Of a stretch of 64,000 nt of DNA, positions 5,579-56,855 are shown piece after piece. This stretch comes from Zychaea mexicana (Eukaryota; Mucoromycota; Mucoromycetes; Mucorales; Lichtheimiaceae), in NCBI RefSeq assembly GCF_025766255.1, contig NW_026516666.1:620001-684000 (forward strand), read 5' to 3'. The translations under genes and the position numbers were made by a program. The notes under the pieces were generated by a model, which was not told where the DNA came from, made no database searches, and was given only the letters and a program-made list of their open reading frames with translations. The first letter of the stretch is position 1. Each line of letters opens with the position of its first letter.

Positions 5579-8500
5579 ATGACACCGTCTTCGTCGGCCA
5601 GCGCGAGCGACGGAAACGCATTTGCTTGGCAGTTACTTCAGCATAGCGCGTCAGGTAAGATAAGTTGGTATTGAAGTCACCTCGGGCAATTTTTTGACAG
5701 CCCCACTACTGTCACATTCTACAGGTGGTGGTGAACCAAGAAGGCAGCACACAAACGCATATCATTATCAACGACAGCATTACCACCATTATCAGCAGCA
5801 ACAAGGCACATCATACCATCAGATCCAACCGCAATACTCTAACGATCCGTCATATTATTCACCAAGCTACCATATTTATGGCGACTACTCGGTGAGAAAG
5901 ATGAGAAAATGATTGCCCCAGAAATTTCAAGAAGAAGAAAAAATTTTGACAACTCACACTTGTTTATTTTGTTTCTATAAAAGCGACCATGTGACCAACA
6001 ACAACAACAATACTGGTATCATTCTCACCCTGCAACTGGTACTGCTGGATATGCGACGTATGGATATGTACAGCACAATCAACTGCCACCAACAGAAGAG
6101 CCGCCGCCGCCTCCTCCTCCAAGTACTTTACCTAAAGATCCTGTGCCGCCTCCACCACCACCACCTCCTCCTCCTCCATTGTCTGAACCATCTTCGCCCG
6201 AATCCCGTTCCCCACAGTCCGCGGCTTGTGTTACTGGAAAAACCGGAACTCCTTCCCCGAAACCGGCGCCACAGCAGGAGCAGCCCTCGAAAAGGTTCGG
6301 CCGGTTCATGGGCAAATTGTTGCTCGTCAAAAGCAGTAGAAAAAAGCCAACAGCAGCCAGTGGGTCACCGGCATCTCAAAACAAGTCGCTCAATGGTTAC
6401 TTTCGCACGCAAAAAGAATCGTCTACTGCTACTACTGCTACTGCTACTACAAAGACCGTAACAACAGGAGACGACGCCCGGAAGCCGTTGTGCGTTTCAG
6501 ATTCAACTACCGATGGTGATCAGCATGAAAAACTTGTCTCACAGAACTGCATCAACGACGACGCCAATAGAACAGATGCGACTTTTTCGGTTGAAGCTAA
6601 CAACAATAGAGACAATGTTATTTCCAAAGCTCTGCCGCTAATATTATCGTCATCACCATCATCAGCGATAGTACTGCCATTGTCGTTACCGTCACACCAA
6701 CAACCACAACCGCATCAGTACACTAGCAACAGCCATGATAATGATGATCTGCTTTTACTCGAGGACGATGATCTCAGCTCGCTCAGCTCACTTCAAAGCG
6801 AAGATGACGTCTTGGGTCCGTGGAGTGAAGATATCACGCCCATGTGCACGGAATGTGAAGCGTCGAGGGACGAGACATCAGGACCTATTGAAACTGATTG
6901 GCTATGCTCCCATTGTAAGGACAAGTGGGTCGACCACACGAGCGCATGGCTTGGACGGATTGCCGAAAAGAAACGTTCCAGTAAAAGCGATACAGAAAAG
7001 AAGCAAAAGAAGCAGCAGCAGCAGCAGCGACTAGCGGCCATAGTGTCAGTCGTGCCTAAAACGGTACCTCGCCAACACAAAAAGCAGCGGCGTACAACAG
7101 CAACGAATGCTTCAGCTACTGGTCTTAAAAAAATTAAAAAAGTGAAAACGACGACAAAGACTGTTAAAAAGAAATTGGCACCTGCTCCACCACCGACCAA
7201 ATCGCAGACAGAAAAGTATGTAACCACTGGTGCCTTCATGACGCGCAACACAGCCAAACAGCTTGCAGATCCGGAAAATGGATTTCATCCGAATCCATAT
7301 GGATTTGCGCGGAATCAAAAAGTTGAGGTGCTCAATATCAACGGCCATTGGTATCGTGGCGTGCTTACAGTGATGAAGGCATCCAAAGTCAAAGTGTCCT
7401 ATATGGACTGGCAAGATCAGGAAGAGTGGATCAACATGGGTAGCCGCCGAATTCGCATATATAGCGCTGCTGCCGAAGTTGAAAATAACGATGACGACGA
7501 CGATGCGGAAGAAGAAACCGAGACCAATGTCGATCAAGAAAAAGCTAGAAAGAGTACAGGTACATTGTCTGGTGCTCAAGGTAATCTTATAAAGAGAAGC
7601 ATATATACTACTACTCTACAGATTATTGAATGGGAATTATTTGTGCGTATATACAATCTTACAGAAAAAGAAGTTGAAGATGTTTATGGTGATCCTCTCT
7701 TACCGCAAGCCTCGAGTGGCGTTCGTGCCGACGACTATGTCAGCGCAACATTGGATAGAGATCCCCAGCAAATATTTAATGACAACGAGGTCTTTTTGAC
7801 GCGTCGAATGGCGCGAGAACTGACAGACGAGCACGGATTTCGAGCCAATTCATTTGGTTATCGTTATAATCGTGCAGTTGCGGTGACATTCAAGGCTGCC
7901 CGGGGCCATAACAGGAAAATTGAGTATCTGGGATACTTGCGCGAAATGCGAGCGAGTCAAGTGCGTATATGGTATCCTACACTACGCCAATCGGATTGGC
8001 TGGTGGTCGGCAGTCGACGTCTACGTTTACTTAATAGTGAAGAAGAAGCGATGCTCAAGGAGCAGGCAATTTCATTACCTTCTCAGCCCGCTGAAGATTC
8101 CAGACCTGACGAGCATACAAAGCATATTATCTCCATCGAAGCAAGGCTTCATGAGAAATCCAAATTTATTGCTGCGCAAGGAGAAGCAATGCCAAGCAAA
8201 GACCCAGTCCCTAAAGTGCCAAAGATTGTACAAGTTGAAAAGTCAGGAGGAGCATCGAAGATTGTAGCAGAGCCACTACATAAAGTGCCATCACAGCCAG
8301 ACGAGCGAGCTGTTCCAGAACAGCAGTCACCACTGGTAGAGACAGATGCATCAGTAGCACCAACCCTACCGCCTCCAAAACGGAAACGTGGCCGGCCTCG
8401 AAAGTATCCACTTCCAGATTCACTCGCGCAACAAGAACAGCCAGCAGCTCTAAAACAACAGAAACTGAAAATTCAAGAAACACCAGCTGCTAAAGCTACA

Positions 8501-11500
8501 GTTACCGAGCCAGCACAACGAGCAGAATATGAGGAAGATGAAAGCAGTGCAGCATCAACGGAATACGTGTTCAAGACAACAGGCGCGTTTGCCACACGCC
8601 GGGCGATGCGTCAGCTCAAGGATGAACACGGCTTTGTTCCAAATCCTTATGGTTACTCGTACAACCAACCAATCGAGATACTAAATACGCGTACGGCTAA
8701 AAACAAGCGATTTTGGGAGCGTGGACACCTTACTGCTATGCGACCAGGTCAGGTCAAAGTACGTTATGATGGATGGAACGAAATCTACGACGAATGGTTT
8801 ATGGTCGGTAGTCGTCGAATTCGTCCTGTATCTCAAAGCGAATGTGTTAGTAGCAATACCAATACCAATACCGATACTGCTACTGAAGACTCGGCAACGG
8901 CATCAACAGCAGCGGAAGCATCGCCCACCGTAGCTGTACCAGCGACATCATCGGATCTTATGGCACCTGAGATGAACCCAGAACTCAAAGATCTGGCGAA
9001 AAAGAAACGCAGGCATCAAGTTCTCGGTCCAGAAGATTATATACAGCTGGGATATCTGATACCTACTGATGCACCAGTTCCACCACGACGTGGCCGACCG
9101 CCGAAACCGAAAGCTTTTGTTGCCACTACTGCAGATACTATCCTTAATTCAGAAAGAGCGTCTACCGAAAGTGCAACTTCGACTATGGCTGATATACAAG
9201 CAGCATCAGAATCATCAGAAAGTGAAGCTAGCGATTATGAACAAGATCAAACTGACGACGCCAATTTCGTACAGAAACAACAAAAGAGGAGAAAAAGACA
9301 GCAATTTACAACAGTTACCGCCAACCAAAAAAGGAGAAAGAAGAAACAACCGGCCAGCACCCTGAAAGTATTAGCCCAAAAACATGAAGAAGAGCTGCAG
9401 CAACAACAACAGCATAAACCTATATCACTGCGTCGTGGTGGTGGAGGTGGGCTGACAAGTGCGGACGATCATGGCTTTATTGCCAATGTTTATGGATACG
9501 ATTATATGCAACACGTCCAAGTGCTCAATCTCGACAAAAAATGGTACGAAGCAAGACTTGTTCGGATGAGTAAGAATCGGGTTCTGATTCATTATTGCGG
9601 GTGGATCGACAAGTATGACGAGTACATACCGCTGGGAAGTCGACGCCTGCAGGTCATCGAGAATGCTCATGAGGTCCTATGTGCCGAGCCCGAGTACAAA
9701 GAGCGGTATGAGACGCTAATACTTGAAGCCAAACAACGACAACAGCAACATGAAGAAGGAGACGACTTAATCCAAGAAGGGCAACATCAGCAAACATCGG
9801 CAGCAGCAAGACGTAATAGCCGTCGACGAACCTTATCGGAGGGACCATTTGATGGATCCCTTGAAGAGATTGAATATCACAAAGAAGATGAAAATGGGCC
9901 TGGATTCGAAGGTATAGAAATAAAAAGCGTCCTTGCTGATACTTGGTTTAAGTGCAGGCCTATAATTAATATTTAGCAATAGAAATCGATGCATGGAAAG
10001 TATATTGCAACCAATGTAATGTTGTGATCAAACAATTCCGCTACTATTGCACGTATTGCGAGACGCCATCCGAAGGGTATGACTATGAAAGCTTTGAGCT
10101 ATGTTTAAGGTATATACACTGCTTTTGTTCTCTTGCTATTTGTTTCGTAATGATAATAAGAATACCAGCTCTACTTACACTTTCCTTAATTTTGTTTAAC
10201 AATAAACAAGATGCTTTGATCAAAACTTTCCATTTTGGCACGATCATCCTCGCTCCAGCTTTGCAGTCCAAGCGGTCATTAATGCCGAAATCGGACCCAT
10301 GCCAATCAAGGGCGAGCTTGTTACTGTATGGGAAGAGGACGTGATAGACGTTGCTCCGACAAACGCCAACAGCAACAACGACAACCACGAGGATAACAGC
10401 GACAAGAATAGCGGCGATGGTGAAGGCAGCAACGGCACTGACAAACATCAGATTGTTGAAGAAGCTAGCAAGGTGTTTACAGGCGATGCATCCATAGAAA
10501 TCGCCGAGCAAGGCTACAAATACTTGAAACGATGGCAACGACGTAAGGTGTGTGCATTTTGCAATGACGACGACGATACATCTAGTGAGCTTGGAAGCTT
10601 TATCGGACCATTTGTTATTGCAACATACAATAAAAATGGGGTCGAACGTAAGCGACAGTTCTGGGCTCACGATGCATGTGCACGCTATTCGCCCGAGGTA
10701 TTCTGTACGCCCGAAGGCAAATGGTATAATGTAACTTTGGCACTACGTCGTGGTCGAGGCATGGTATGTAACGTATAAAAAAAAGAGAACTGATTAGCAA
10801 ATGAGTATGTGTGTGGGTGACAAGTGGAGTGCAAAAACTCATCAGTTGAGCAAATTTGATTTGTATAGCGCTGCTATAGCTGCAAAGAAAAGGGTGCAAC
10901 CATTGGCTGCTTTGATTCTCGATGCAACAAAAGTTTTCACTTGCCTTGTGCCCAAAAACCCGTTAGTTACTTCCGCAATGGTGTGATTTTCTGGTGCCCT
11001 ACCCATGAAGCGTATTATAACAAAAAAGGTAATAAGGGATAGAGAAAAAAAGTGCTAATCCGCATCGGAAAAATTCGTTAGAAGAAGAGGGGAAGATGAT
11101 GAAGAGCAGGTTCTCCGAGATTTCTGCGAATTCTCTGTTAATCCCTCGTTGCAAATGCGATCCTAAATTTGCCGAAAATTTGTTTCACTATGTCTTTAGA
11201 TACATACGTAAATATTTTTAAATGCGATGGATGTAACAGGCAAATGGAGGATGAATCATGGTTTACATGCTTGCCATGTGCATCCGGTTATTTTTCGTCG
11301 TTCGATTTGTGTGCTGAGGTATGTGAAAGAGACCTAGAACAAAAACCACTTCTCTAATCGACCGAAAGCCACAATCGACAACCATCACCTCACCGTATCG
11401 ATATTTATTTTTAACTATATTAGTGTTTTGGAAAGCTACCAGAGTATAACCATCCACATGATCAAGATGATTTCGAAGAAACATGTACGTTGTATATTGT

Positions 11501-14500
11501 CTTCGATACACATACCATGAATGCCGATCTAGGAGAATCAAGCCATGCTAATCTGTACTATTGTACATACGTGCATCCTATTTGCAATGTATACAAATAG
11601 CGTTTGCAATCATTAAGGAAATGGAGGCGGAAAAGGCACGAGAAGCAGCACGGACCAAAGAGCTATCAGCAGGTAAAGAACCCCCGAACCAAAATGTGGC
11701 GCACGTGCGGCTAGAGTATTCACCTTATTTTCGGTGTTACCAGCAAAACGGAAAAAGTCTCTGTTTCCACGGAGACGACGGAAACGAGCAGGTGATGCGC
11801 CTGTCACCACTTGTTGCTACTGTGGCACAGAAGATGCAGAAGAGTGGCGGAAAGGTTATGATGGAGGTGTGATCATGTGTCGCCCTTGTTTTGAAGTTGC
11901 ATTACTTGTCGACAACAACGATGGCAGTGGAAACAACAACAGTAACAACAGTAACAACAGCGATGACCCGACCACCTTTCCCGATGATGATTACGATGCG
12001 TGTGGTGATGGTGGCGACACATATGTCACATTGATTGAAAACTACACGCATAAACCGTATCTCACACGCGACGCACTTTCGTCTACCAAGTTTACTGCCA
12101 CGGCAGGAATTCGTTTAGCGACGTATGAGCCTCAACCTCATCAACTGTTCTCGCTTGTGTTTGATTCGACGTACTTTGACATTCCTGGTCGGGCACCAAG
12201 ATGGGCCTCGCATTCAGGAACAGACTATCATGGTTAGTCATTAAAGTAGCAAATTGGAAGAAGTCTACCGTGTTTTCTGTAGTACTGAACTCAAAGAGTT
12301 TTCTTAGGAACCTGGCTACCTCAAACCGTACGCAGGTAAATTTAACTTTTTGCTACTACTATGCTTTTACAGCAGACAAAGAAGGCTCTGTATATGGTTC
12401 TAATATGACATCTGATCTAGAGCTATCCTGAAACACACTGACAAGGACGAGCGTGTGCTATCCAACTTTCTGGGACGGGGTAGGGAGCTTAAATTTTTTA
12501 TTCATCCGATAGCGATATGATGATCACTTGAAAGTAGGAAGAATTAAGGGTTATATCACTACTAGGAACGGATGCGATCGAATGCTTTTTGCTACAGCGA
12601 CGGTGCTGTGGAGTCGATATTAACCCAGTGAGTTTTTTAACTTCTTTTCGCATAACTTAGCGCTGTGTTTTGTGTTTGTGTCATAATGCCGAAGCTTAAA
12701 GTTCCTATTTTTAAAATTGTACTATGTGGTGCAATCTATCTATAGGCTGCGGTTGCATTGTCACAGCGGAACTGTTGTTTCGAAATACCACCCGGATTGA
12801 CGTCTGCTGAATACCGACCGATCGTCGCACAAGCAGATTCGCGTCATCTCACGGGACCGCTGTTTGCTGATGAATCGTTCCATCATGTCTTGTCTCATCC
12901 GCCATACAAAGACTGTGTAGCCTATTCAACCCACTTGGATGGTGATCTGTCACGATTTACCAATATTGAAGAATTCAAGGAAGAATACATCAAAGTCGTT
13001 CATGAGAGTTGGAGGTAGGTATTCCCTCTCTTCTTAACGTGGATGGGTTTCGGAACCTTATAAAAATGTTGTCAATGATGATTTTTTCTTAGAGTATTGA
13101 AAATGGGACGGCGACTAACGCTTGGCATCGGTGATAATCGGGAGCATTGCTTCTACATTCCCGTCGGTTATCATTTATTACGACAATATATTGACAATGG
13201 CTTTGAATTGGAGGAGTTGGTAATTATTGATCTCGTCTGATTGATCCCGGAAAAAAAAGTGCTTCACAACAAATGTTCTAAAAAAAACTTGCTTTTGCTG
13301 TCACATACACAAAAGATCATTAAGCGTCAACGCTATTGCTCAGCATTTGGGCTGGGAACCTACTTGTGTGTCCAATTCGACTTTTTAGTGTTTACCCATG
13401 AATTCATCGCGACGTTTCGAAAAATTCCGCGGGAAAATGTGAATCGCATGATATCACTGAAAGGTAAACGAGGAAGAGAAAAAAGTTATTTTTAAGAAAG
13501 TTTATTTACAGATGATGGATATGTTTGTGTAGAAAATACTGTCGATCATGTGCGAGTAACAAGAACAATGCGAGGAGTACCATCATCTGCTATTGCTCGC
13601 AAAAGTGTCGTCATGGGAACGGTGTGGGTTTTCAAACCAACGGAGCATTATCGTTTCGATCGGCTTTGCATGTCTCGCATGGTGGAACGATTTGGCCGCG
13701 ATGATACCAATTGGATCCAAATTGAACTGAATTTCGTGTCGTCGTATGAGGTATTTTGCTATCCCGCGAACGATATGTACATGCATACATACTATACGTG
13801 ACATTATCGACTCATGGTTTCTCTTAATTTTCATAAGTTTTATCAGCCAACAGAAAATCACACTCAAGATGATGATACCACATTGTCAAAAGAGCGAGAC
13901 AAGAATGGAAAATCTGATGAGGAAGGAGCCCTGCTTTCTGAATACGAACAGCAGCGGTTAAAGCGGATCGAAGAGAATACTCGCACTCTCATTCAATTGG
14001 TATGTATGATCTCTTTAAATACTGCTGTTAAATTTATATACTTTAATGTATGCTGATAGTCACTGATTTCACTATTATTTACAGGGATTGATATCCGAAC
14101 TTAGCGAAGAGTCGACAGACATAATGCACTACGAAACTATGATGAGTAAGCCACCCCAGGTTGAAAGCGCTCCACTACGACTAATGGTCATTGCCCATCT
14201 ACCACGCTTGTTGTCGCATCACATTGGAATTTATCGCCAAACACTAATTAAGCTTGCTGCTGAAGCTGTTGAAAAACTGGCACCGAAGGGCATGCTTATT
14301 ATTGGAACACAGGATGTGCGATCACCCGACGGCAAGCTATGGCCAATGGGCATGCTCGTGATGGAAGATATCGAACGCTCCGTCGACCCTAGCACACTCA
14401 AGCTGAAGGAAATGATCATCGCTGTACCAGATGGATATTCTAAAAATCGACACCGAGAGCCAAAGCCAGAAGATCAGAATATTCATTCAACAACAGATGG

Positions 14501-14612
14501 TGGCAGCACTGCTGTTAGTGATATCAACGGAGAGGAAGAATCAGTCGTGGATGTGGTTGACGAGCACTTGCAAATTGTGCATGCCACGTATTTGGTGTTT
14601 CAGCGACTTTAA
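5579..14612 (+). CDS. Chromatin-reader / bacterial-type DNA amino-methyltransferase fusion (19 exons, about 2456 aa)
   Basis: Exons: 5579-5654, 5725-5891, 5984-9911, 9977-10109, 10211-10763, 10869-11028, 11200-11318, 11424-11484, 11601-11672, 11744-12232, 12308-12335, 12421-12479, 12566-12627, 12746-13014, 13093-13219, 13316-13463, 13512-13750, 13847-13999, 14085-14612. All phases close to 7371 nt. Domain order by approximate residue: polyproline 110-146; a CX2C..CX2C pair 369-392; four Tudor/chromo-barrel-like repeats near 495-574, 686-764, 944-1030 and 1236-1306, each ending in a GSRR(I/L) motif; AT-hooks near 880 (RKRGRPRK) and 1117 (RRGRPPKPK); ZZ finger from about 1399; ePHD from about 1546; second ZZ about 1673-1732; GATA-type finger (CYCGTEDAEEW..CRPC); then a DNA methyltransferase with HGTWLPQTVRRAIL, motif I NFLGRGTDAIE, GVDINPAAVALS, motif IV SHPPYKDCVAYS, and the GDNREHCFYIPVGYHLL and VFTHEFIATFRK blocks. 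The methyltransferase part resembles bacterial/archaeal N4-C/N6-A DNA methylases, so a nuclear DNA-modifying role is inferred. Splits into two genes remain possible, but no internal promoter or stop is forced. Confidence 0.75.
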
Positions 14613-14832
14613 GAAGCTGGTGTCTCGGAAAAGGAACAAGAGCAGGGGCCTGGTTATCGGTTTTTACAGATCTTCGTTGCACAAGTTCTTAATATAAACT
14701 GCTTAACTTTCTATTAATACTAAGAGTAAAGAAAAAAAAATAAAGTTTCTCTTCCTCACCCATCATTCTTCGTCCCACGCCTCGTACTATCCATCTACAC
14801 TCTTTCCCTACTCCTTCAGCTTTGGATTTCCC
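14613..14832. promoter_or_regulatory. Short intergenic region with CT-rich promoter
   Basis: Only about 220 bp separates the methyltransferase fusion from the first VTC gene. The last 80 bp are pyrimidine-rich (TTCTCTTCCTCACC.., ACTCTTTCCCTACTCC), as expected for a fungal core promoter. Confidence 0.35.
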
Positions 14833-16961
14833 ATGACATTTCAACCAAACAATGTTTACGAACCATGGCGTTTCGAATATGTATCGTATAAACTGATCAA
14901 GCATAATATTACCCAGCAAGTTCACAATCACGGTTGGCTCGACCGAGACGAATCCAGCTTTACGGCGTTGCTTTGGCACGAAGCCGAAAAAGTCGATCGA
15001 TTTATTACACAGAAACAGCGCGAAATTGAATCAACGCTTGCCCATTGCCGCCGTCGTATCGAGCAGCACCACAGCAACAACCATACCAGGGAGACGCTTC
15101 GCGACGTTTACTGCGAGCTCCAAGCATTATGCGATTTTGCACGGCACAACTCTTTGGCACTGGAGAGCTTGATCAACTATCACGACGAGATCACAGAGCG
15201 CAACCAGAGACCACTGCTCGTCGATATTATACGGAAAAGACCCTTGGGACGCCAACAATTCGACTTGACGTTGATAGAGGTTTCAAAGCTCATGGATACC
15301 GTTACCGAGCAACAAGAAGAGCAAGTATATCAACAGCAGCAGCCTACAGCAGTACATTTCTGGGTCCATCGAGATAATATCAATCAGGTTCTGGCCGTGT
15401 TACACTTCCATCTATCGTCCAGCATCAGCCGGCCGACGGTCACATATTTGGACAATTCACGATACGAGTTATATCAAGGTCGACTTGAGCGCGACGAAGG
15501 AGCAGAAGAGATTCGGCTAAAGCATTTTACTAGTGCTGCCAAGGATGTCTTTGTGGAACGTGAAACATACCACGCACCGTGGCTGAATAGCCAATCTGTC
15601 ACTGACGGCTTCCGACTAGACTCACCAGACAAGGCCGACCAATTCTTGTCGTCTCAATACACCGCCGACGAATGTGTCCGAGATTTATGTACCACTGATG
15701 CCGAGCGCCACACATTGGGATTCATTGCGTCAGGGATTCAACAGTCCATTAACGACAAAAATTTGCGACCGACGATGCGCATGACCAGTGAACGAGCCGT
15801 GTTTCAAAATCAAGTCTTATTTGACACAAATATCGTTTTTATCGGCGACCATACCTACGAGATGCCACACGCTGTTCTGCAGACCACTTTGACTGGCAAC
15901 AGTGAGCAGCAACACCAGCAGGAGCCGTGGCTTAAACAGCTACTTGACGATGGCTTGGTGTATGAAGTACCCTGTTTCTCATTGTTTTTGCATGGCATGG
16001 CATGTATGTGGCCTGAAAGCATTCCATGGCTACCGTGGTGGATGGACGAGCTTGATATTGATATTCGCGATTCCCGCCAGCCCAAGGGGTTCAAGTCTGC
16101 AAGCCAGTATGCTCATTCAAGGAGTCTTAGACCAAAGGAGGAGCCTCTTGGATATCTCAATCATGAGCTCGAGTATCCTCGGCTTCCGTTGCATGAACGA
16201 CCTGCCATGAAGCAAGAAACGTTCCCTGCTCGTCATGAAGCTATCAATATCGACAGGGACTATTTCAGCGATCCAGTATGGCAACAGCATCAAGATCAAT
16301 TTTCTTCATACGACAACAACGACAACAATGACTATGACGATGCTGAGCAATATCAGCGACCGCAACGGCAGATGGGATGGAGAAATCAACGACAGCAACA
16401 AGAAGACGATCAAGAAGGCCAGACATTGCTTGGTAGCGGCGACGAGAACAATCGCGAAGAACAATCGAGCAATAAAAAGAAAAAGAACAAAAAGCAAAAG
16501 AATCCCATGCTCGAACCGAAAGTGTTCTTTGCAAACGAACGAACATTCATCCATTGGCTACAGTTCTCTGCATTGATTCTCGTTTCAGCGCTGACGCTTC
16601 TTAACTTCGGCGACAGGATCAGTACCATTGCCGGCGGTGTCTTTTTTGGTATTTCAATGGCTATTGCTCTTTACGCCTTTGGGCGGTATCGATGGCGAGC
16701 GTATCAGATCAAAACTCGGCCGCAAATACGATACGATGACATTTATGGGCCAATTGGGCTGTGTACACTGCTTGTTGGCGCGGTGATTGTAAGTCGGCGT
16801 TAATGGGAATATCTAGGCGAGACTTCTTGTACTTCCATGTGTATTCATCATATTTCTTTTATTTTCAGTTAAACTTTATTCTACGGTACCAGCATCCAAG
16901 CCCAAGTGATTCGTGGCTAGGAATCAACAATGGTACCCGGCAACAGCATCTCCAGCAATAA
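14833..16961 (+). CDS. VTC-family polyphosphate complex subunit with degenerate polymerase domain (Vtc2/3-like)
   Basis: Exons 14833-16788 and 16869-16961 give 682 residues. The layout is SPX, VTC central tunnel domain, then a VTC1-type three-helix membrane domain starting at EPKVFFANERTFIHWLQF. The tunnel keeps GRLERDEGAEEIRL but differs at key places: AVLQTTL replaces the AVLETKV of the neighbouring VTC4, and EVPCFSLFLHG replaces EVPRFSKYLHG, so the conserved Glu and Lys are gone. The SPX lysine surface is also lost (ARHNSLALESLINYHDEIT against TRLNYTAFLKILKKHDKWT in the neighbour). This is therefore likely a non-catalytic accessory subunit at the vacuole or acidocalcisome membrane. It sits head-to-tail 0.9 kb upstream of VTC4 and the two probably arose by tandem duplication. 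A poly-Gln/Asn/Asp region precedes the membrane domain. Confidence 0.85.
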
Positions 16962-17872
16962 GAAGGACTGTAAATCATCATTTTTTAGTACTTTCATTAT
17001 TATATAATTATTATTAGATTCTTTATTGGCCGTTTCCATGTATGTTATGTTTTGTAAAGAAACATTCTGTAGTTGCTAGTTGTTCTACGTGTGTTACAAA
17101 CATGAAAAATGTTCCACACCACCCCAGTATATTTAGTGCAAAGTTCTAAAGTTAAAAGCGATCGTCGTTAAAATTAGAATAACCGGAGTTGGGAGAAAGA
17201 TAGGTCGTGTGTGATGAAATAGATCAGAGAGTGTGACAACAGGACAGTATGTATCTTTTCATGATCTGTAAATGAAATAATGCTTCGCACCGGGTAAAAA
17301 TACGCAGGGACATGCTGAGCAAACGTAGCAAAACATAATCATGGCAGTTAGAGTGAGATGATACTCATCGCGCGTGTCACCACGCGAACCCACATGTGGA
17401 ATAGCTTGCTTATAAGAAACGCAAGCAATAGATGTACCCCATGGCACAAGATATTAGGACTGTAATTATGAGGGTGTGTGTGTTGTGCAAATCAGCAATA
17501 AAGGGAGGATAATAGCGACAGGAATTTTTCTTGCGGATACCGGTTCATGCCGTCTGTGGACGTCTCACAGTGTCTGGCTCTATTTTTTTGCCTTGACGAC
17601 TTTTTTAGTACTGTGGCGAAGTTAAATAGTAAGAAATCATTTTCAAACCCGAACAAATAGTCTTCTATTTCTATCAGCACCCGTCATCATTAGCAGCAGC
17701 ACCATCACCACTGCTTCAGTTGTTACAAAGACATAAGATCCTAGTCCCGTGTTCTTTTTTCTGCTTCTTCGTTTTCTTTCCTCACTCTTTCTCTCTCACT
17801 TGCACATAGAAAGACACATCGTGCACTTTACTCTTTTCTTTCTCTCTCTTACACTCACAAAAACTTAAACAA
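16962..17872. other. Intergenic region between the two VTC genes
   Basis: It contains the 3' UTR of the first VTC gene and, at about 17750-17872, a strongly CT-rich leader ending in CACAAAAACTTAAACAA just before the VTC4 ATG. I see no other gene. Confidence 0.45.
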
Positions 17873-20190
17873 ATGAAATTTGGTGACTATTTAAACGAGC
17901 AAGTATTTGCGCCGTGGCGCCATTACTACGTTCAATACGACTACCTTAAATATGAGCTCAGAAAGCGCCAGCTCAGTGACATGGGATGGACTGATGAAGA
18001 CGAACAAGACTTTATCCGCATTCTTGAGACCGAACTGGACAAGGTGTATGACTTTGTTACTGCCAAACTGGTCGAAGTCGAAGCAAGAATTACATACTGT
18101 GAGCGAACATTACGGATATCAAGTACCTCGCTCAAGTCGCCGCCATCTCAACGTCAAATGGTTGATGATACCCTGACCGAAGCCCTGTTTGATATCAACG
18201 ATCTGGCCAAGTTCACTCGACTCAATTACACTGCTTTTCTAAAGATCCTCAAGAAGCATGACAAATGGACCCCTGGGTTTCCACGCCTACAGCAAGAATT
18301 TATCCCCAAGATGCGTGCAAAGCCGTTGGACAAGCAGCGATTCGACGTACCCATTATTTACATTTCAGCGCTCCATGATATTTGTCGCAACACAAGAACA
18401 CGTTCTCCCTATGCTCAAGGCAGTGATGACGAAGGCGAAGGGGGTGGTGCCGGTAATGGTGGTGGTGGCGATGTGTTTGAGCGGGCCACAGCCAAGTACT
18501 GGGTTCACCCAGACAATGTCACTGAAGTCAAGGCTATTCTGATGCTCAACTTGCCTGTGTACCTTTACGACAGTCCTGATGTCAAGCAATACAAGGAGAG
18601 CGATTCTTCCATCTCGAGTGTTTACATTGACAATTCACAGTTTGAGCTGTACACCGGCCGTTTGCAGCGAGATGAAGGTGCAGAAGCAATCCGCATTCGA
18701 TGGTATGGAGATATGCATGCTAACCCGGTATTCGTCGAGCGAAAAACACATCACGCGCCATGGACAGAAGACTTGCGATCTCTCAAGGAACGTTTTGCTC
18801 TGGACGTCGATAGAGTCTCTGGTTATCTTTCTGGCCACCCCTATGAAGGCAAAGAAAAACACATGTTTGTAGCCAACGGCGTACAAGAATCAATCAAGTC
18901 CAAAAACCTCAAGCCGACACTACGTGTGTTCTATCATCGAACTGCATTTCAAGTCCCCAAGGACCAGCGAGTGCGCGTCAGTCTCGATACAGACTTGACG
19001 TTTATCAAGGAAAATAGCCGCTCCCATTGGCGTCGCCCCGATGTAGGTATTGACCACCCGTTTCCGTACTTGGAAGATGACGAAATCCTTCGGTTCCCCT
19101 ACGCTGTCCTTGAAACAAAGGTACAGACGCATCTTGGTCAAGATATGCCGGATTGGCTCAGCCGACTTGTCGACTCTCATTTGGTGCATGAAGTTCCACG
19201 ATTCTCGAAATATTTGGTACTTGTTTATATCTTTTTTCTTCTTCTTTATTTCATTTTTTTGTATGACCACTCATTGCCCCTTTCACTCCCCCATTATAAT
19301 TCAGCATGGAGCGAGCACTCTGTTTAGAGACCAAATTCCACTACTACCTTGGTGGCATTCTGAACTGACGGTGGATATTCTGAAACCACGCGATACCAAC
19401 TTTGGGTTGTCCCGATCAGCATCGTTCAAGCCGCTGATGGATGGCCAGTATGTCTTCAAGCGTGCCATGGATACCGAACATCAACGTATACGGGTTGTCT
19501 CTATGGTTCCAGAGGAGTCCCAGAACTCATCGCCTACGAGCAAGCGCTCGCTGATCACAAGTTTGCTACCCCAGAAACAGCGATATCATCCAGTGTCTTT
19601 TGGGACACCTGTTGATGCTGATGACTATGATAGCAATGAGAAAAGACGACTAAACGACAACACCAAGCCTAAGAAAACCGGATTCATCGCAAAATGGCAG
19701 CAGCAATTCTCGCGGCGCAAACAGGCAATGGCTTCCGGAAGCAATAGTAGAGGAGCGGTGATTCCATTACGCAATGTCAAGGTTGAGCCCAAGGTATTCT
19801 TCGCAAACGAGCGTACGTTTATAAGCTGGCTCCAATTTTGTGGTCTACTTCTCATGGTGGCTCTGAATTTGCTCAACTTTGGTGACGAATCAGCCAAGAT
19901 TGCAGGCAGTGTCTTTATTTGTATTGCTGCACTTGTTGCTTTGTATGCATTATATCGATTTGAGAAGCGCGCATGGTAAGTAGATCCATCACTTTTTTCT
20001 CTCTGCTTTTTCTGGGGATAATAGTGTGCAAGATTATAGATTTATTCATCAAACCAAACACTGGATGTTTCTTAGGATGATCAATCGTCGTGTGGCTGGA
20101 CGTTACGACGATCTCTGGGGCCCTGTTGTGCTCTGCGTTCTTTTGGTTGGAGCTCTCATCGTTAACTTCTATCTCCAATTTGGTAATTGA
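17873..20190 (+). CDS. VTC4: VTC4-like polyphosphate polymerase (vacuolar transporter chaperone catalytic subunit)
   Basis: Exons 17873-19216, 19305-19975 and 20076-20190 give 709 residues, close to yeast Vtc4 (about 720). The SPX domain begins MKFGDYLNEQVFAPWRHYYV and has the inositol-pyrophosphate-binding lysine helix (LNYTAFLKILKKHDKWT). The polymerase tunnel has YTGRLQRDEGAEAIRIRWYG, VFVERKTHHAPW, the conserved glutamate in AVLETKV and the lysine in VPRFSKYLHG, so it looks catalytically competent. The C-terminal VTC1-like membrane domain starts EPKVFFANERTFISWLQF and ends in LVGALIVNFYLQFGN. The family makes polyphosphate from ATP while translocating it into the vacuole. Exon 1 ends exactly inside the FSKYL/HG motif, and the intron carries an in-frame read-through with a stop, so splicing is needed for a full protein. 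Confidence 0.93.
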
Positions 20191-26340: not shown

Positions 26341-27957
26341 ATGGCCGATCGACGTTCAGTGCTTTGCACTGCCATCTTTACACCCATTGTTTTCATATTA
26401 CTTATTCTCGGTTGGCAACGAGGTGGGCTCAAGGACGACGAGAATCTTGCCCCTGCTGACCCACCACCAGTGTCTCATACAAATGAACCCATTATTGCCG
26501 GCTACTTTGTAAATTGGTAAGTAGTCAATCGTCCGCTTACAAACAGACTTTAAGCTTTTCATGTTTTTTTTTATTTACATTGCTTGTAAATCAGGGGCAT
26601 TTATGATCGAGAGTACAATGTTGTTGATTTACAAGCTGACAAGCTTTCTCACGTGCTTTATGCATTTGCAAATCTGCTTGACGATGGCACAATCGTTCTC
26701 GGGGTAAGCGGTGGTGTCTTTGTTTTACTTTACACTACTTTGACTTTCAAGGCAGGAAGCTTATGTCGTATATATGTGCCTCGCTTAGGATGCTTGGGCT
26801 GATACGGATAAGCACTTTCCCGCAGGTGAGTTATCAGAGTTGTAGTAGTAACAAGAAGAAATCATGCGACAAAAGCAGGTCCCACTAATAACACAAGCTG
26901 GGATGCAATTTCACTAGGTCAAACCATTAACAAAAAAGCAGACGACTGGAATGAGGGAGGAGACAATTTATACGGCAATTTCAAGCAGTTGTATCTTTTG
27001 AAGCAAAAGTATCGCCATTTGAAGGTCTCCCTGAGCGTGGGCGGATGGTCATGGTCAGGCAACTTTTCGACAGTTGCCAGCAATCCTGAAAAGCGCGCTC
27101 GGTTTACTGAAACAGCAGCATCTTACGTACAAGACTTGGGACTTGATGGCATTGGTAATTCCAAAAGGACATGTGTGGTGACATAGATCTCGAGTAAACT
27201 TGTTGTGCTAATATATATAAAAAAAGACATCGACTGGGAAATGCCAAAGAACGATGCCGAAGCAGTGTCTTATGTAGCACTTGTCCATGATTTACGAGCC
27301 GCACTAGGAACGGACTATCTCGTTTCCGTCGCTGTGCCTTGTGGACCTGAAGATTACAAGAAATTACACTTGCCAGAGATGGCATCAGAAGTAGATTTGT
27401 TCTATTTGATGGCATACGACTTTGCTGGCGCCTGGGATCCAGTGATTGGACATCAAGCGGCACTCTACGGCGGCGTACTGAACGACGACAGTGCCGTCGA
27501 GTACTATATCAAGTCTGGTGTTCCAGCAGAAAAGATCGTCCTTGGCATTCCAGCTTACGGTCGTGGTTTTTCCAACACGGAGAATAAGGTCGGATCGTCA
27601 TTCGATGGAGTGCCCTCGGGTACTTGGGAGGCTGGTAGCTACGACTACAAGGTTCTACCAAAACCGGGCGCTACCGAACACTACGACGCGGATCAGGTTG
27701 CATCTTACTCATACGATACAAAAACACACGAATTTGTCACCTACGACAATCCTGCTGCTGTCAAGGCAAAATGTGAATATGCGCTGAACAAGGGCCTTGC
27801 AGGTGTCATGTTTTGGGAACTAAGTGCCGACGCCGAGACACAGGATCGCAGCTTAGTGCATGCTGCATATACCGCCTTTGAAGGCCAAGTGGACGCTTCT
27901 TCCAACCATATCGAATACACTTTAAGCCGATATGATAATATCAGAAGCGGTATGTAA
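26341..27957 (+). CDS. GH18 chitinase with N-terminal signal anchor
   Basis: Exons 26341-26516, 26595-26703, 26789-26825, 26879-27154 and 27227-27957 give 442 residues. An N-terminal hydrophobic segment (AIFTPIVFILLILGW, residues about 11-25) right after a basic MADRR start suggests a signal anchor or signal peptide. The GH18 barrel begins IIAGYFVNWGIYDREYNV. Other conserved blocks are KVSLSVGGWSWSGNF, the catalytic DGIDIDWE motif split by an intron (LGLDGI/DIDWEMP), LMAYDFAGAWD and GVMFWELSAD. All catalytic residues are present. The enzyme would cleave chitin at the cell surface or outside the cell, for wall remodelling or nutrition. No chitin-binding module or GPI signal is visible. Confidence 0.92.
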
Positions 27958-31140: not shown

Positions 31141-32331
31141 ATATATTATAGCTATAATTATATATAAGTAGTTACTGTGCCATTTAATTATAAAAATGTA
31201 ATTTCTATAAAAATCAGGAGAAAATATAACAATAAGACCTTAACGATAAAAAGTTTTTTTTTTCTTTCTAGCAACAAAGAAAATTACTATTGAAGGAGTA
31301 AAATTAAAGATTCTATAAACAATTTACAATTGTAAATTAATTATAGATACCTTTAATTAAAAAAAACAATTTCTTTTCTTCATCTTAAAATTTGCTACTA
31401 GGTAATAAACTAAATAATATTATATTATCACTCTATTATTAATTATAATTAATATACAAAGTTATAATATTCTTTCTACTATATTGCTATTAGTATACCA
31501 TCAATAGAGTATTTGCTATTGTTGTATCCAATATGATCAATAACACATATTCTTTAATCGGTCATTAACGATTGCTGTTATTCCCCTCATAACCTCACTT
31601 GTGCAGACATTTCTTTATTCATACACATCTTAGTGAAACACTGATCAGCTATGCTCAGGAAGAAGTTGTCATTATTGGGATCACGTAATTCACATTAGCT
31701 ACTATCTGAGGCATTTACCCGGATGTACCTTTTACTCACGCATCATACATTACTTAATCCTATATGGTTGATTTATAACATCAATTCATTCGTTCAATGC
31801 ACACGCTGTAGTAGTTGCTAAGGATAAGCCATTTCTTATAAATAGTGAGAACTTTTTGTTATCATAATAAACCAGTTTCAATTCCTTTTAGGTCTCGTTG
31901 ACTTATTCTGTCTCTTTTGGTTTATTGGATATTACAGCTATCACTATCTAGAGTTTTTTTCTTATTTTTTGGTCTTACAAAGATTTATACTTCCACTTTT
32001 TTTGGTCTACACAAGGACTTACAGATTGTAAGGAAAATCTGAAATTGGTGTGGGGAGAAGTTTGGTCTACTGAAGGAGTGAAGATAGTAGAGGGGACATG
32101 TGTAACGGATGTTTAAACTCCTATATGTAAAAATTTGGTCACTCGAGCAGCTCTGAATAACAAATGTCTGTCACTGGACAATTGAAATTGATGTTATTGA
32201 CTAATCAAAATTAATTTTGTACTTTCTCGATTATATTTTAGTTACTTAGAAATAAGCAATTCGTGTGATCTCTTATTGTTTTCTCTTTTTTTCTTTCCTT
32301 TTTTTTCAGTTGTAATTCTCTTGCCCTGAAA

Positions 32332-33735
32332 ATGTTAACTTTAGGTCAAGCTTCCTGCCTTGTCCTTGGATACAAACCCAATGATCCAGAAGAGAGAAAA
32401 AAGGCAAAAGAACATCTAGAAAAAAGTGGCTTAATTGCAGTACACATACATAATCACGATCCTTTTCAACTGATGGCTATTGGTATCAATGTACACAAGC
32501 GAGATCCCTTCAAATTCATAAGTTATCCCGATTCTCCAACAATGCCACCTACAGATTTACCTGATAACATTGATGATCACGATGGCAATGACAACAACGG
32601 CAATAACGACGATAGCAACAACAGTGACAGCGACAATAGCAACAGCGGCAACGATAGCAACAACAATGGCAGCGACGATAGCAACAGCAGCATCTATAAA
32701 AATAATAATAGCAACAACAGTAACAAATACAGGTCTTAAAAACGGAAGCTTGATGACACGGTTATACCATTCTGCAAGGATCGTCTGCTGAATCTTATGA
32801 AAGAAATTGCCACTGATGAAAATCCTTTGAACGACAATTGTTATTCCAAACAATTCCTAACTGCAGAAGATCAATACCAATCAATGTGCTGTGTGTTCCC
32901 GCGTCTTTAAAAATCATTGTAGCGTAAATCAACTTCAATATTGAATTTGGACAGGCAAAGATCTGGGGAGAATCAGCACGCTCACGAAAAAATCAGCGAA
33001 AACCTGGACGAAACTTATGGGTGTTTGATGAACAGCTGAGGGGTAAAATCACTTCACTAAATTTTGGGTTTCCATATTTTAACAATCTATTCTGTAGCGT
33101 TCGCGAAGGATACTTCTGACTCAGTCAAGGCATACTGGAAATATTTACAACATGATACCAAATACATAACAATTGGATACGCACATAAATCGCCAACTGA
33201 CGAAACAAAAGAATCACGAATACGTTTATTACAGTTAGTGGTGAACAAACTATACTTCTGCAGAAAGTGCAAAGAAGTATTCATGAGCCCAATTTGCAAA
33301 GCAGACCAACCAATATTAGAAAGAGACTCGCCAAAGCAGGATGATTTACTGCTGCATTTAAAAGGATCCCATAGCGATATCTTAGGTACATCAAGGTTCA
33401 GTATAATAGTTATAATAACTGAAGATTTCCTATAGATTTAGTTGCACGCATTCATTTCAGCCAAAAACCTTTCTGCCTTGTCATCATTGACTACGCCGGG
33501 CTTTCAACGTTACTAAATGATATTAACATTTTTTTAGAGTAAGTCGAAAAGAATACTGATTGCAGCAAGTTTTTTCATGCTAATTAATTTGAATACTAGA
33601 CAATGCAGCAATATCAAGGAAGTTGTTGTAGACCATGGCTCTTCGTTTGAGATCTTATCACGTTTTGATCTTTTGAAAAATTTGGATCTGGAAAAATTTA
33701 AATGTCGACATGCCAACGTTAAACGATCAAAGTAA
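32332..33735 (+). pseudogene. YARKS-family serine-recombinase-like gene, copy A (nonsense-mutated)
   Basis: Same start as copies B and C (MLTLGQASCLVLGYKPNDPE). The frame stops after KYRS because CAA (GGTCTCAAAAACGG in B and C) is TAA here. It has a further one-base change in the GGGTTTCCATATTTT stretch. It uniquely keeps about 250 bp (about 32785-33033) coding for NLMKEIATDENPLND and, after a likely intron, IWGESARSRKNQRKPGRN and LWVFDEQLRGKITSLNFGF. The YARKS block (ITIGYAHKSPTDETKESRI) reads AHKS here, losing the arginine. Confidence 0.7.
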
Positions 33736-38114: not shown

Positions 38115-39297
38115 AGCTATAATTATATATAAGTAGTTACTGTGCCATTTAATTATAAAAATGTAATTTCTATAAAAATCAGGAGAAAATATAACAATAA
38201 GACCTTAACGATAAAAAGTTTTTTTTTTCTTTCTAGCAACAAAGAAAATTACTATTGAAGGAGTAAAATTAAAGATTCTATAAACAATTTACAATTGTAA
38301 ATTAATTATAGATACCTTTAATTAAAAAAAACAATTTCTTTTCTTCATCTTAAAATTTGCTACTAAGTAATAAACTAAATAATATTATATTATCACTCTA
38401 TTATTAATTATAATTAATATACAAAGTTATAATATTCTTTCTACTATATTGCTATTAGTATACCATCAATAGAGTATTTGCTATTGTTGTATCCAATATG
38501 ATCAATAACACATATTCTTTAATCGGTCATTAACGATTGCTGTTATTCCCCTCATAACCTCACTTGTGCAGACATTTCTTTATTCATACACATCTTAGTG
38601 AAACACTGATCAGCTATGCTCAGGAAGAAGTTGTCATTATTGGGATCACGTAATTCATATTAGCTACTATCTGAGGCATTTACCCGGATGTACCTTTTAC
38701 TCACGCATCATACATTACTTAATCCTATATGATTGATTTATAACATCAATTCATTCGTTCAATGCACACGCTGAAGTAGTTGCTAAGGATAAGCCATTTT
38801 TTATAAATAGTGAGAACTTTTTGTTATCATAATAAACCAGTTTCAATTCCTTTTAGGTCTCGTTGACTTATTCTGTCTCTTTTGGTTTATTGGATATTAC
38901 AGCTATCACTATCTAGAGTTTTTTTCTTATTTTTTGGTCTTACAAAGATTTATACTTCCACTTTTTTTTGGTCTACACAAGGACTTACAGATTGTAAGGA
39001 AAATCTGAAATTGGTGTGGGGAGAAGTTTGGTCTACTGAAGGAGTGAAGATAGTAGAGGGGACATGTGTAACGGATGTTTAAACTCCTATATGTAAAAAT
39101 TTGGTCACTCGAGCAGCTCTGAATAACAAATGTCTGTCACTAGACAATTGAAATTGATGTTATTGACTAATCAAAATTAATTTTGTACTTTCTCGATTAT
39201 ATTTTAGTTACTTAGAAATAAGCAATTCGTGTGATCTCTTATTGTTTTCTATTTTTTTCTTTCCTTTTTTTTCAGTTGTAATTCTCTTGCCCTGAAA

Positions 39298-40452
39298 ATG
39301 TTAACTTTAGGTCAAGCTTCCTGCCTTGTCCTTGGATACAAACCCAATGATCCAGAAGAGAGAAAAAAGGCAAAAGAACATCTAGAAAAAAGTGGCTTAA
39401 TTGCAGTACACATACATAATCACGATCCTTTTCAACCGATGGCTATTGGTATCAATGTACACAAGCGAGATCCCTTCAAATTCATAAGTTATCCCGATTC
39501 TCCAACAATGCCACCTACAGATTTACCTGATAACATTGATGATCACGATGGCAATGACAACAACGGCAATAACGACGATAGCAACAACAGTGACAGCGAC
39601 AATAGCAACAGCGGCAACGATAGCAACAACAATGGCAGCGACGATAGCAACAGCAGCATCTATAAAAATAATAATAGCAACAACAGTAACAAAGACAGGT
39701 CTCAAAAACGGAAGCTTGATGACACGGTTATACCATTCTGCAAGGATCGTCAGCTAAGGGGTAAAATCACTTCACTAAATTTTGGGTTCCACATTTTAAC
39801 AATTTATTCTGTAGCGTTCGCGACGGATACTTCCGACTCGGTCAAGGCATACTGGAAATATTTACAACATGATACCAAATACATAACAATTGGATACGCA
39901 CGTAAATCGCCAACTGACGAAACAAAAGAATCACGAATACATTCATTACAGTTAATGGTGAACAAACTATACTTCCGCGGAAAGTGCGAAGAAGTATTCG
40001 TGAGCCCAATTTGCAAAGCAGACCAACCAATATTAGAAAGAGACTCGCCAAAGCAGGATGATTTACTGCTGCATTTAAAAGGATCCCATAGCGATATCTT
40101 AGGTACATCAAGGTTCAGTATAATAGTTATAATAACTGAAGATTTCCTATAGATTTAGTTGCACGCATTCATTTCAGCCAAAAACCTTTCTGCCTTGTCA
40201 TCATTGACTACGCCGGGCTTTCAACGTTACTAAATGATATTAACATTTTTTTAGAGTAAGTCGAAAAGAATACTGATTGCAGCAAGTTTTTTCATGCTAA
40301 TTAATTTGAATACTAGACAATGCAGCAATATCAAGGAAGTTGTTGTAGACCATGGCTCTTCGTTTGAGATCTTATCACGTTTTGATCTTTTGAAAAATTT
40401 GGATCTGGAAAAATTTAAATGTCGACATGCCAACGTTAAACGATCAAAGTAA
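39298..40452 (+). CDS. YARKS-family serine-recombinase-like protein, copy B (intact, 342 aa)
   Basis: Exons 39298-40112, 40178-40255 and 40317-40452 join in frame (donors AG/GTTCAG and GA/GTAAGT). Residues 1-75 form a conserved N-terminal region (LVLGYKPNDPEERKKAKEHL). Residues about 85-130 are Asn/Asp/Ser-rich. The C-terminal half reads YWKYLQHDTKYITIGYARKS, then SRIHSLQLMVNKLYFRG, CEEVFVSPICKADQP and LVIIDYAGLSTLLNDINIFL. The order (GYARxS, then a helix with Q, then VxxDxxGLS) mimics the catalytic fold of serine recombinases (R8, S10), but the later 'DRLxR' arginines are replaced by DYAGLS. Activity is therefore doubtful and the family assignment is an inference. It lies opposite a Tc1-type transposase. 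Confidence 0.6.
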
Positions 40453-41032: not shown

Positions 41033-41825
41033 TTACATAGGCTCCTTGTTTCGACATTTATCCCAGCACTTGTAAGAATGCGAAACAAAGCCTCTGAAGT
41101 GACTTTTCTCCATACTTTTGTAGGCTTCTGTAATTCTTTTTGATAAAGTGTCTTCCTGCAAAAACCTATGGCGCTTAACCTTACTCTTTGCCACTGCCCA
41201 GAATTGTTCTATTGGGTTAAGCTCAGGAGAGTAAGTAGGAAGATACACACATTTGTATCCTCGATACTCAATATACTTCTTTATGTTTTCATGCGTGTGA
41301 ATGGGTGCATTATCCCATGACTATATAATGGCCTTTCATATGCAAATGCTTGTCCATTTCATCGAGAGTCGTTTTTAAGAAACTGATGTAGTAGTGGCCT
41401 GTGACAGTTCCTGGGCTTATATATCCATCAGCTTTTCTCTTCTTAACAGGTCTTGGTTTTTTCACGTCAACTGCAATCAAACCTGAAGCGGAGATAGCGC
41501 CCAATATAGACGTTGTATTTGCTCTAGTAGTGGGTCTGGTAACAATGGCACGAGAACCTTTTTTGGACCAAGCGCGTGAGCGTTTCATATTAATATCAAA
41601 CGCAGACTCGTGGCTGCGACATTGCTTGTTGGAAGCACTGTACCTTATCTTCTGATGTCTCACCACTTTTTTTGTCCGTTCGATTTCACTCCATGCTCCC
41701 GAGAATCTCGAGACAACCATCGTAACGATGGTTGAATCTGTATTGGATTTTGCCCACAGTCCACCCATTGGGATTGCCACCTTTAACAAACTCATTGAAG
41801 ATGCGCGTCCAGTACCTTTCTTCAC
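41033..41825 (-). pseudogene. Tc1/IS630-like DDE transposase, copy B (frameshifted)
   Basis: Same protein as copy A, including the extra C that breaks the frame between HYIVM and the following HTHENIKKY block (near 41313). Shared damage shows it predates the tandem duplication. The N-terminal frame (SMSLLKVAIPMGGLWAKSN) is open and joined to the DDE part here because of small indels near 41725. Confidence 0.75.
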
Positions 41826-42000
41826 TGTGATCGTTGCCCTACATCGGGATCGGTACAGACTTTCAACTAAGCACTAACCAAGTGGAGGTCGTCTTCTTTG
41901 TCCTAGTTTTCGGTACGTGGTCGCTTTACCGAATCACCAGCGACAGAGGCGTTGTTGATCGGAGCAGGGGAGGGAGAGGCAACAGGAAGTGGGGTGTCAC

Positions 42001-55515: not shown

Positions 55516-55896
55516 TAATTTTAAACATGTTAAATTCTTCATAGTAAAAATGAATTGTCGTGGCAGAAGGGAGTTTTGCGTCAGCTCGACGTCGAAACAA
55601 CGTTAAATGTAAAAATATAAAAGAGACAATGGTATTTTCACCGTAAGCCATATTTTAATGAAATTATCTAAATTATATCCTTGGTCTGACCAAACTGTAT
55701 TCTGCGATAAGATTTCAATAAAGGGTTGTTTCGTATTTGAACTTCAGTGATTGTTACGTCGGCTCGGATATATTTGACGTTTTTAATGATATGCTTGCCA
55801 TTGAGTTTGATATTCCTCAAAACATTTCGCCAAGCCAGGTAATACGGGTGATTTTGATGATGCTGCTCCAGGTATGGCGCTATCTCCGCTTCAGGT

Positions 55897-56340: not shown

Positions 56341-56494
56341 TGGCATCGACAGCCACACCAGAAGCCAATAACACAGCGATTAAGAAATTGGTAAGCTACA
56401 ATCAGATCAGCAACAAACAATTTTAACTTTATTATATATTTTCTTATGTAGGTCATACAACATTGGCAAGTATTTTTAAGAGCACCAAGTGTAG

Positions 56495-56570: not shown

Positions 56571-56855
56571 GCGCAAATGATGGGAGAAATCTGGCAGTTT
56601 ATGTTTATAGCATCGTGGACAGTTGTGTTTTTTTTTTACATACACGCCATGGATGATAAGTAGACATCGCTCTCATTCAAATAACAAATGTCAGTCGCTG
56701 GACAATTGAAATTGATGTTATTGACCAATCAAAATTAATTTTGTACTTTCTCGATTATTTTTTAGTTGCTTGGAAATAAGCAATTCGTGTGATCTCTTAT
56801 TGTTTTCTCTTTTTTTCTTTCCTTTTTTTTCAGTTGTAATTCTCTTGCCCTGAAA

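Follow-up and report, generated by a model that had tools for sequence, protein, structure and literature searches.

The 64,000-nucleotide (nt) stretch of DNA analyzed here, referred to as the window, represents positions 620,001 to 684,000 of contig NW_026516666.1 of Zychaea mexicana and contains, at 5579-14612 on the + strand, a single gene of 20 exons in which chromatin-reading modules are joined to a two-lobed methyltransferase of prokaryotic type. Splicing by hand and by script gave 7,296 nt, including one terminal stop, which encode a protein of 2431 amino acids (aa); all introns are GT..AG and the reading phase is kept throughout. A first-pass annotation made from the sequence had described a continuous, phase-consistent gene of 19 exons. 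The single gene and its phase held up, but the number of exons rises to 20, because an 84-nt intron at 7581-7664, divisible by three in length, is also removed; retention of this in-phase intron is possible, and the homologue P0003 (Sporodiniella) has AQEK at this site, matching the spliced form. Among the 19 exon junctions, 12 were gap-free in the covering homologues (six printed; single exceptions), including those in the extended plant homeodomain (ePHD), the second ZZ-like finger and the methylase, while five were located in variable linkers or adjoined gaps and the first two (after aa 25 and aa 81) had no homologue support. In P0003, which was annotated in a different genome, all four repeats described below are collinear with the methylase, which argues against two genes, and the same modules are joined in the annotations of other genomes (e.g., P0003, with four repeats, P0013, P0018 and P0028). 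These data confirm that the fusion of a methylase to chromatin readers in one gene, as first observed, is real. A protein search of the genome (305 contigs, 50.3 Mb) indicated that the methylase part is single-copy, as all six matches fell within this locus. A search of the same genome with the PF01555 hidden Markov model gave no match, which is no evidence of absence, since the domain is split over short exons and the protein search did find it.

The reader modules (all on the + strand, like the other features of this gene) were identified by a Pfam scan of aa 491-2431, performed in two pieces with matches recorded up to E 1, and by repeat profiles and regular expressions. Four Tudor/MBT-like repeats of approx. 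80 to 90 residues share the pattern HGF..N.YGY...V.V......W....L..M....V.V.Y..W....DEW...GSRR, which is loose in repeat 2. Repeats 1 (aa 496-581; 7226-7483) and 3 (aa 919-1009; 8579-8851) were detected by both Pfam and a repeat profile, and repeats 2 (aa 653-743; 7781-8053) and 4 (aa 1207-1286; 9443-9682) by the profile. Repeat 3 contains an MBT match of 33.6 bits (cut-off 22); Agenet, Tudor_4 and Chromo_MORC2 matched under their cut-offs. The scores of the repeats in the window protein are circular, since the profile was built from these four repeats themselves; when applied to 64 long proteins (the window's included), it found at least one repeat in 50 and four repeats in 8, with no match in one shuffle of each of the 64. 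The ePHD, a PHD-like zinc-binding domain (aa 1519-1644, spliced; 10545-11027), rests on a PF13771 match of 39.5 bits (cut-off 29.1), as a regular expression for this domain matched none of the 14 proteins printed, including the window protein; its identity to ten homologues ranged from 49 to 86%.

Regular expressions located two AT-hook cores, KRKRGRPRKYP (8378-8410) and PRRGRPPKP (9083-9109), with RGRP at aa 855 and 1089, and two ZZ-like Cys/His patterns (aa 1373-1419, spliced, 10006-10247; aa 1653-1696, spliced, 11223-11459), the first of which shows 49-85% identity across its nine covering homologues. PF00569 (ZZ) did not match the window protein at E ≤ 1 and scored below its cut-off of 21.4 in two homologues (P0062, 19.5 bits; P0013, 16.7 bits). 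A C4 pattern at aa 1752-1777 (11812-11889) resembles a GATA finger; PF00320 scored 10.8 bits in the window protein, far below its cut-off of 26.8, and a precomputed PF00320 annotation is attached to one homologue (P0018). The call is weak, since the same expression also fits inside the first ZZ-like finger. Thus, the repeats, AT-hooks and ePHD named in the first-pass annotation were recovered, whereas its ZZ and GATA fingers were found only as patterns that miss the Pfam cut-offs and are therefore referred to here as ZZ-like and GATA-like. In addition, a C-x2-C ... C-x2-C cluster read from the sequence at aa 369-392 (6845-6916), N-terminal to the Pfam-scanned part, may represent an extra zinc-binding module that is absent from the first-pass annotation.

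The catalytic lobe (aa 1877-2120, spliced; 12187-13456) matched PF01555 (N6_N4_Mtase) with 42.3 bits (cut-off 26.7) and the PADLOC profile PDLC03376, an HPPY Type II methylase, with 122.3 bits (E 7.2e-36; the library shows no curated cut-off), and it aligned to the prokaryotic N-lobe by hhalign. The same Type II profile was the best match for the fungal domain and for three bacterial proteins (P0108, P0090 and P0121). The motifs are arranged in the order X-like HGTWLPQTVRR (spliced; 12229-12421), motif I NFLGRGTDAIE (aa 1916, spliced; 12464-12582), GVDINP and motif IV HPPY (aa 1991, in SHPPYKDC; 12893-12916). As motif I precedes motif IV, the order differs from the permuted one of beta-class enzymes; the N-terminal portion of the domain aligns to the C-terminal portion of the PF01555 profile. 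Neither MT-A70 (PF05063), whose motif IV is DPPW rather than HPPY, nor PF02384 (the MetB type) matched the scanned protein up to E 1, and no 5-methylcytosine methyltransferase (DNMT) match was found in the pieces scanned. These results bear out the assignment to a prokaryotic-type amino-methyltransferase that is neither MT-A70 nor DNMT, as well as the proposed HG(N/T)W.P..RR-type element before motif I, where prokaryotic relatives carry RGN[WF].P..(P/A/T)R.

The HPPY form of motif IV, also noted at first reading, proved typical of the family. All four positions of the motif were filled in 64 of 77 eukaryotic rows, of which 63 have HPPY and one (P0058) HLPY. All 149 rows taken as prokaryotic have HPPY; these were chosen by id range among the listed matches, and three may be eukaryotic, as they contain FLGRGT. 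Another 42 rows (P0077-P0150, outside the set of 149) are in no main count and comprise 20 with HPPY, one with HPLT and 21 that lack letters at this site. Identity to ten homologues is 64-88% in the methylase domain; for the first 495 residues, seven homologues offer partial coverage (46-230 residues) at 7-39% identity.

The methylase is followed by a second, degenerate methyltransferase-like lobe (aa 2150-2431, spliced; 13592-14609), which was identified by hhalign (E-values given here are for single profile-pair comparisons). The eukaryotic C-lobe aligned to the prokaryotic C-lobe with a probability of 99.5% (E 1.1e-22, 183 columns), and the prokaryotic C-lobe aligned to the prokaryotic N-lobe with 98.8% (E 4.9e-17); the eukaryotic C-lobe reached 90.7% against the prokaryotic N-lobe but only 63.5% against its own N-lobe. 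It retains W, D.R, P, LKE-like and H signatures, while motif I and HPPY are absent. Both lobes were confidently modelled in the homologue P0001, and the C-lobe also in the prokaryotic P0203. The first-pass annotation had recognized the methylase but missed both this second lobe and the spread of the family described below.

A similar C-terminus was present in three proteins (P0120-P0122), and a profile of these gave 4,495 matches among 7,999 candidates scored; of the best 120 of these matches, 113 covered at least 94% of the two-lobed query. The two-lobed matches listed include metagenome-assembled genomes of Anaerolineae, Armatimonadota, Actinomycetota, Promethearchaeota and Freyarchaeota. 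At the genome level, a complete archaeal two-lobed gene was read in locus L098, and genes of the two-lobed type in L099 and L100 begin 3 nt after an EVE-domain gene, although the gene in L099 is cut at the end of the locus and that in L100 is broken (a 256-aa open reading frame, ORF). A viral contig (L096:5935-8144) carries an HPPY methylase ORF, an overlapping C-lobe-like ORF and a further PF01555 methylase with SPPY. The two overlapping ORFs could be two genes, or a single gene interrupted by a frame break. L096 and L101 were considered as cases of lobes encoded apart, but the break in L101 is within the N-lobe and the ORFs in L096 overlap at the linker, and both may thus represent a frame break in a single gene; an argument for partnership of the lobes from separate genes is therefore withdrawn or at least weakened. 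Adjoining HPPY methylase genes in two archaeal loci (L098:1717-3066 and L103:3-1253) are proteins of 417-450 aa that are similar by eye, without a Pfam match above cut-off, and that are possible partner genes of the methylase.

A search with the methylase region found 76 relatives at E ≤ 1e-3; every one with an organism name is from an early-diverging fungus. The named relatives include Mucorales, Umbelopsis, Mortierella and its kin, Glomeromycota, Basidiobolus, Neoconidiobolus, Coemansia, Kickxella, Linderina, Smittium, Dimargaris, Syncephalis, Piptocephalis, Thamnocephalis, several chytrids and Paramicrosporidium. No Dikarya name was found among the 76, in a search that reaches only relatives sharing exact five-residue words. 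One EukProt entry (P0062, prefix Clim_evm) we take to be Corallochytrium limacisporum. The Mucor ambiguus protein is already labelled "DNA methylase N-4" in one database entry, and the Mucor lusitanicus orthologue of the HPPY gene is P0006.

Stand-alone relatives of the catalytic lobe occur in bacteria and archaea; they are mostly approx. 248 aa long, 33-41% identical over approx. 93% of the domain, and carry HPPY. Scanning of genome contigs with the fungal profile yielded no relatives; the prokaryotic profile did find them. Among 80 genome loci kept out of at least 581, with neighbours counted within 2.5 kb on the same strand, 72 had a D12/Dam-like methylase match near the single-lobed relative and 66 a match to a DpnII endonuclease. 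Other nucleases in these loci were of the PDDEXK_11 (16 loci), Mrr (5) and MutH-like (4) types, and 5 loci showed none of the types tested; seven of the eight loci without D12 have fewer than 600 bases upstream. In the viral locus L084, an AlwI endonuclease gene is located directly upstream of the methylase. Two candidates did not survive: 290-aa neighbours thought to be further Dam-like methylases are DpnII endonucleases according to Pfam, and a methylase-D12 fusion in L058 had no Pfam support. In the window, the methylase gene is followed downstream by two genes with VTC domains; a restriction endonuclease partner is not expected to persist beside a eukaryotic gene. With regard to these neighbours, the single-lobed HPPY relatives stand in for pneumococcal DpnA, which, as described in passages of a study of that system, methylates single-stranded DNA beside DpnM and DpnII (PMC3573125). 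In a plasmid collection, P0108 as query found a relative in 834 records (778 predicted conjugative), 833 of them at <60% identity, and several of the 20 plasmid relatives listed are annotated as DNA adenine modification methylases.

A tree built from 65 domain rows grouped all 26 eukaryotic rows in one clade (support 100/100), separate from the prokaryotic rows (23 two-lobed and 16 one-lobed), and paired the window row with Phycomyces (90% identical over 237 columns). Three of the 68 rows chosen had been dropped for length, bootstrap support had yet to stabilize, and several terminal branches are long. A long branch separates the eukaryotic rows from the others, and the tree does not indicate a prokaryotic donor group. 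A single acquisition of a two-lobed enzyme would be the simplest reading.

Taken together, we consider it probable that the gene encodes a captured two-lobed DNA amino-methyltransferase which is steered by histone readers and writes either N4-methylcytosine (4mC) or locus-restricted N6-methyladenine (6mA). A ready-made two-lobed enzyme would have been taken from prokaryotes by an ancestor of the fungi, or of the fungi and some holozoans, and chromatin readers would then have been joined to it. The N-lobe, with FLGRGTD, DINP and HPPY, is predicted to bind S-adenosylmethionine (SAM) and to methylate an exocyclic amino group of DNA. The C-lobe, a degenerate copy without the SAM-binding and catalytic motifs, is likely to hold the DNA or to complete the active site, a role modelled by analogy on the inactive partners in MTA1/MTA9 and METTL3/METTL14. 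Going by the domain names, histone tails would be bound by the Tudor/MBT-like repeats, the ZZ-like fingers and the ePHD, and AT-rich DNA by the AT-hooks, and the DNA mark would thereby follow the chromatin state. The first-pass interpretation, i.e., a separate writer guided by histone marks, is in this respect partly supported.

Three points weigh against this proposal. The product could be 4mC as well as locus-restricted 6mA; little bulk 6mA is left unexplained by the Mucor mutants reported in passages of PMC11258239; and tRNA N2-methylguanosine-10 (m2G10) methylases (Trm11, TrmN and Trm14) top the fold search, tied with a generic methylase. The catalytic domain does have a fold of the Trm11 type, and on this point the structure search went in part against the initial assignment to DNA, whereas the restriction-modification neighbours of the bacterial relatives point to DNA. 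Beta- and gamma-class DNA methylases are absent from the 50 fold-search rows listed, which excludes nothing. DNA appears to be the likeliest substrate, with RNA as the alternative, because the single-lobed bacterial relatives adjoin DpnII endonuclease genes in 66 of the 80 loci.

A chromatin-associated RNA methyltransferase of Trm11/Trm14-like descent, whose target would be an exocyclic amine in nascent or structural RNA, is the strongest competitor but appears unlikely. Beyond its best fold rows, it draws on archaeal Trm11 (5e71) as the second-best PDB sequence match (E 6e-10), on TIGR01177 matches, far under cut-off, in P0108, P0090 and P0121, and on the name "TRM11 family" given by NCBI to P0108 and P0195. 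However, the best PDB sequence match is 2zie, a putative DNA modification methylase (E 5.3e-14), the best family matches of P0108, P0090 and P0121 are PF01555 and Type II methylase models, and the single-lobed relatives adjoin restriction endonucleases. Archaeal Trm11, which is the solved structure nearest in fold to the catalytic lobe (level with the generic methylase), differs in having a THUMP domain, a tRNA substrate and a motif IV other than HPPY; no THUMP match was found in aa 491-2431 (up to E 1) or in P0108, P0090 and P0121 (up to E 0.01). We also reason that circularly permuted DNA methylases cannot align sequentially from end to end, which would favor Trm11 in such lists.

It is less likely still that the methylase has lost its catalytic activity, or survives as a vestige, and that the protein acts as a scaffold or reader of chromatin. 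Motif IV is unusual, single rows show HLPY (P0058) or, outside the main count, HPLT, and catalysis is a prediction; yet motifs I and IV are nearly invariant among far-apart rows while the N-terminus drifts, and HPPY is identical in 149/149 rows taken as prokaryotic. We regard a histone or other protein methyltransferase that finds its substrate through the readers as very improbable: reader modules are present and the class-I fold list includes protein methylases such as PrmA, but a PPY-type motif IV and PF01555 typify base amino-methylases, and the single-lobed relatives are found within restriction operons. Equally hard to credit is that an adjoining chromatin-reader gene and a methylase gene were joined on paper, as the model, although built on DNA and homologues rather than RNA and lacking homologue support at its first two junctions, has gap-free ePHD, ZZ 2 and methylase junctions in the covering homologues (single exceptions) and a module order joined in other annotations (P0003, with four repeats, P0013, P0018 and P0028).

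As to which base a captured DNA amino-methyltransferase would modify, the Z. mexicana genome also contains, on other contigs, three MT-A70 matches, one PF02384 match (MetB type; contig C286) and three PF00145 matches; the HPPY gene is therefore an additional type, in agreement with its initial description as a separate writer. In M. lusitanicus, according to passages of the study cited above, 70-75% of 6mA was lost on deletion of metB, the asymmetric part included, symmetric 6mA was attributed to the Mta1 complex, and 4mC occurs only within a reference title (PMC11258239). As MetB and Mta1 account for the 6mA of this species in these passages, P0006 is unlikely to be its bulk 6mA writer, and locus-restricted 6mA and 4mC are left about equally likely as products.

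The nearest precedent is N4CMT of bdelloid rotifers, which passages of its description present as a PF01555 amino-methylase from bacteria joined to a chromodomain that writes 4mC, a "histone-read-DNA-write" arrangement (PMC8885841). Both proteins fuse a bacterial-derived PF01555 amino-methylase to a eukaryotic chromatin reader; in contrast to the permuted beta-type order, SPPY and single C-terminal chromodomain of N4CMT (same passages of PMC8885841), the fungal protein has the linear order X-I-IV and HPPY, a second, degenerate lobe, many N-terminal readers and a spread over early-diverging fungi. The HPPY Type II methylases of DpnII-like operons (PDLC03376; P0108, P0101) share the domain, HPPY and the linear order, but are stand-alone proteins of approx. 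248 aa with one lobe and no readers, usually located beside a Dam-like methylase and DpnII. Two-lobed prokaryotic HPPY proteins (P0195, P0203, P0187 and P0258) have a catalytic N-lobe and a degenerate C-lobe in identical order; where the fungus has readers, P0187, P0203 and P0258 carry a Cys/His cluster at the N-terminus and, by eye, a helical stretch resembling a helix-turn-helix (HTH). Mucor MetB (PF02384) is likewise a bacterial-type DNA methylase acquired by horizontal transfer in the same fungi, but represents another Pfam family with an MmeI-like target recognition domain (passages of PMC11258239). MTA1/MTA9 and METTL3/METTL14 offer an analogy in their active and inactive methyltransferase halves (PMC9174199, PMC9852454), but are MT-A70 proteins with DPPW on two polypeptides, and no sequence kinship is claimed.

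Which enzymes methylate the amino groups of DNA bases in eukaryotes is a matter of dispute, and firm 6mA is known from few lineages, the early-diverging fungi among them. In a 2016 BioEssays survey, eukaryotic adenine methylases were reportedly traced to at least 13 acquisitions from prokaryotes, of which the fungal HPPY gene may be one. The fungal family is not described in the titles and opening parts of abstracts returned by literature searches, or in the passages of relevant papers retrieved by term. Two 6mA writers are described from early-diverging fungi, Mta1 complexes and MetB; in a 2026 review of fungal DNA methylation, a term search found neither PF01555 nor 4mC in the main text (PMC13297926). 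We suggest, tentatively and at less than even likelihood, that the family could be an unrecognized class of epigenetic writers, in which a single-chain active/inactive HPPY amino-methylase copies histone state into 4mC or locus-restricted 6mA. If so, it would be the first native 4mC or histone-guided amino-methylation system in a fungal lineage. A conserved methylase with built-in histone readers would allow a direct test of whether a chromatin mark dictates DNA amino-methylation outside rotifers, and an orthologue exists in M. lusitanicus, a species with published deletion mutants and PacBio mapping (passages of PMC11258239). In addition, pairs of active and inactive methylases could be modelled on a single chain by means of the two-lobed arrangement, for which prokaryotic relatives are already identified.

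Elsewhere in the window, two ORFs with VTC domains (vacuolar transporter chaperone type) are located downstream of the methylase gene (14707-16803 and 17810-19327), followed by a glycoside hydrolase family 18 (chitinase-like) segment at 27187-27957 (185.8 bits). Three near-identical dispersed repeats, with flanks, occupy 32156-32455, 39122-39421 and 56680-56979 (families D1-D6, 95-100%). Two of the copies contain a 305-aa ORF (39235-40152 and 56793-57710); the first of these had no Pfam match and, by eye, is a candidate for a MerR-type HTH with a serine-recombinase segment. A 935-nt inverted pair (55519-56453 and 58563-59497) is located near these repeats. A weak DDE_3 transposase-like match below cut-off (41313-41873) and a MULE transposase domain with 69.3 bits (53992-54951) were both found on the - strand.

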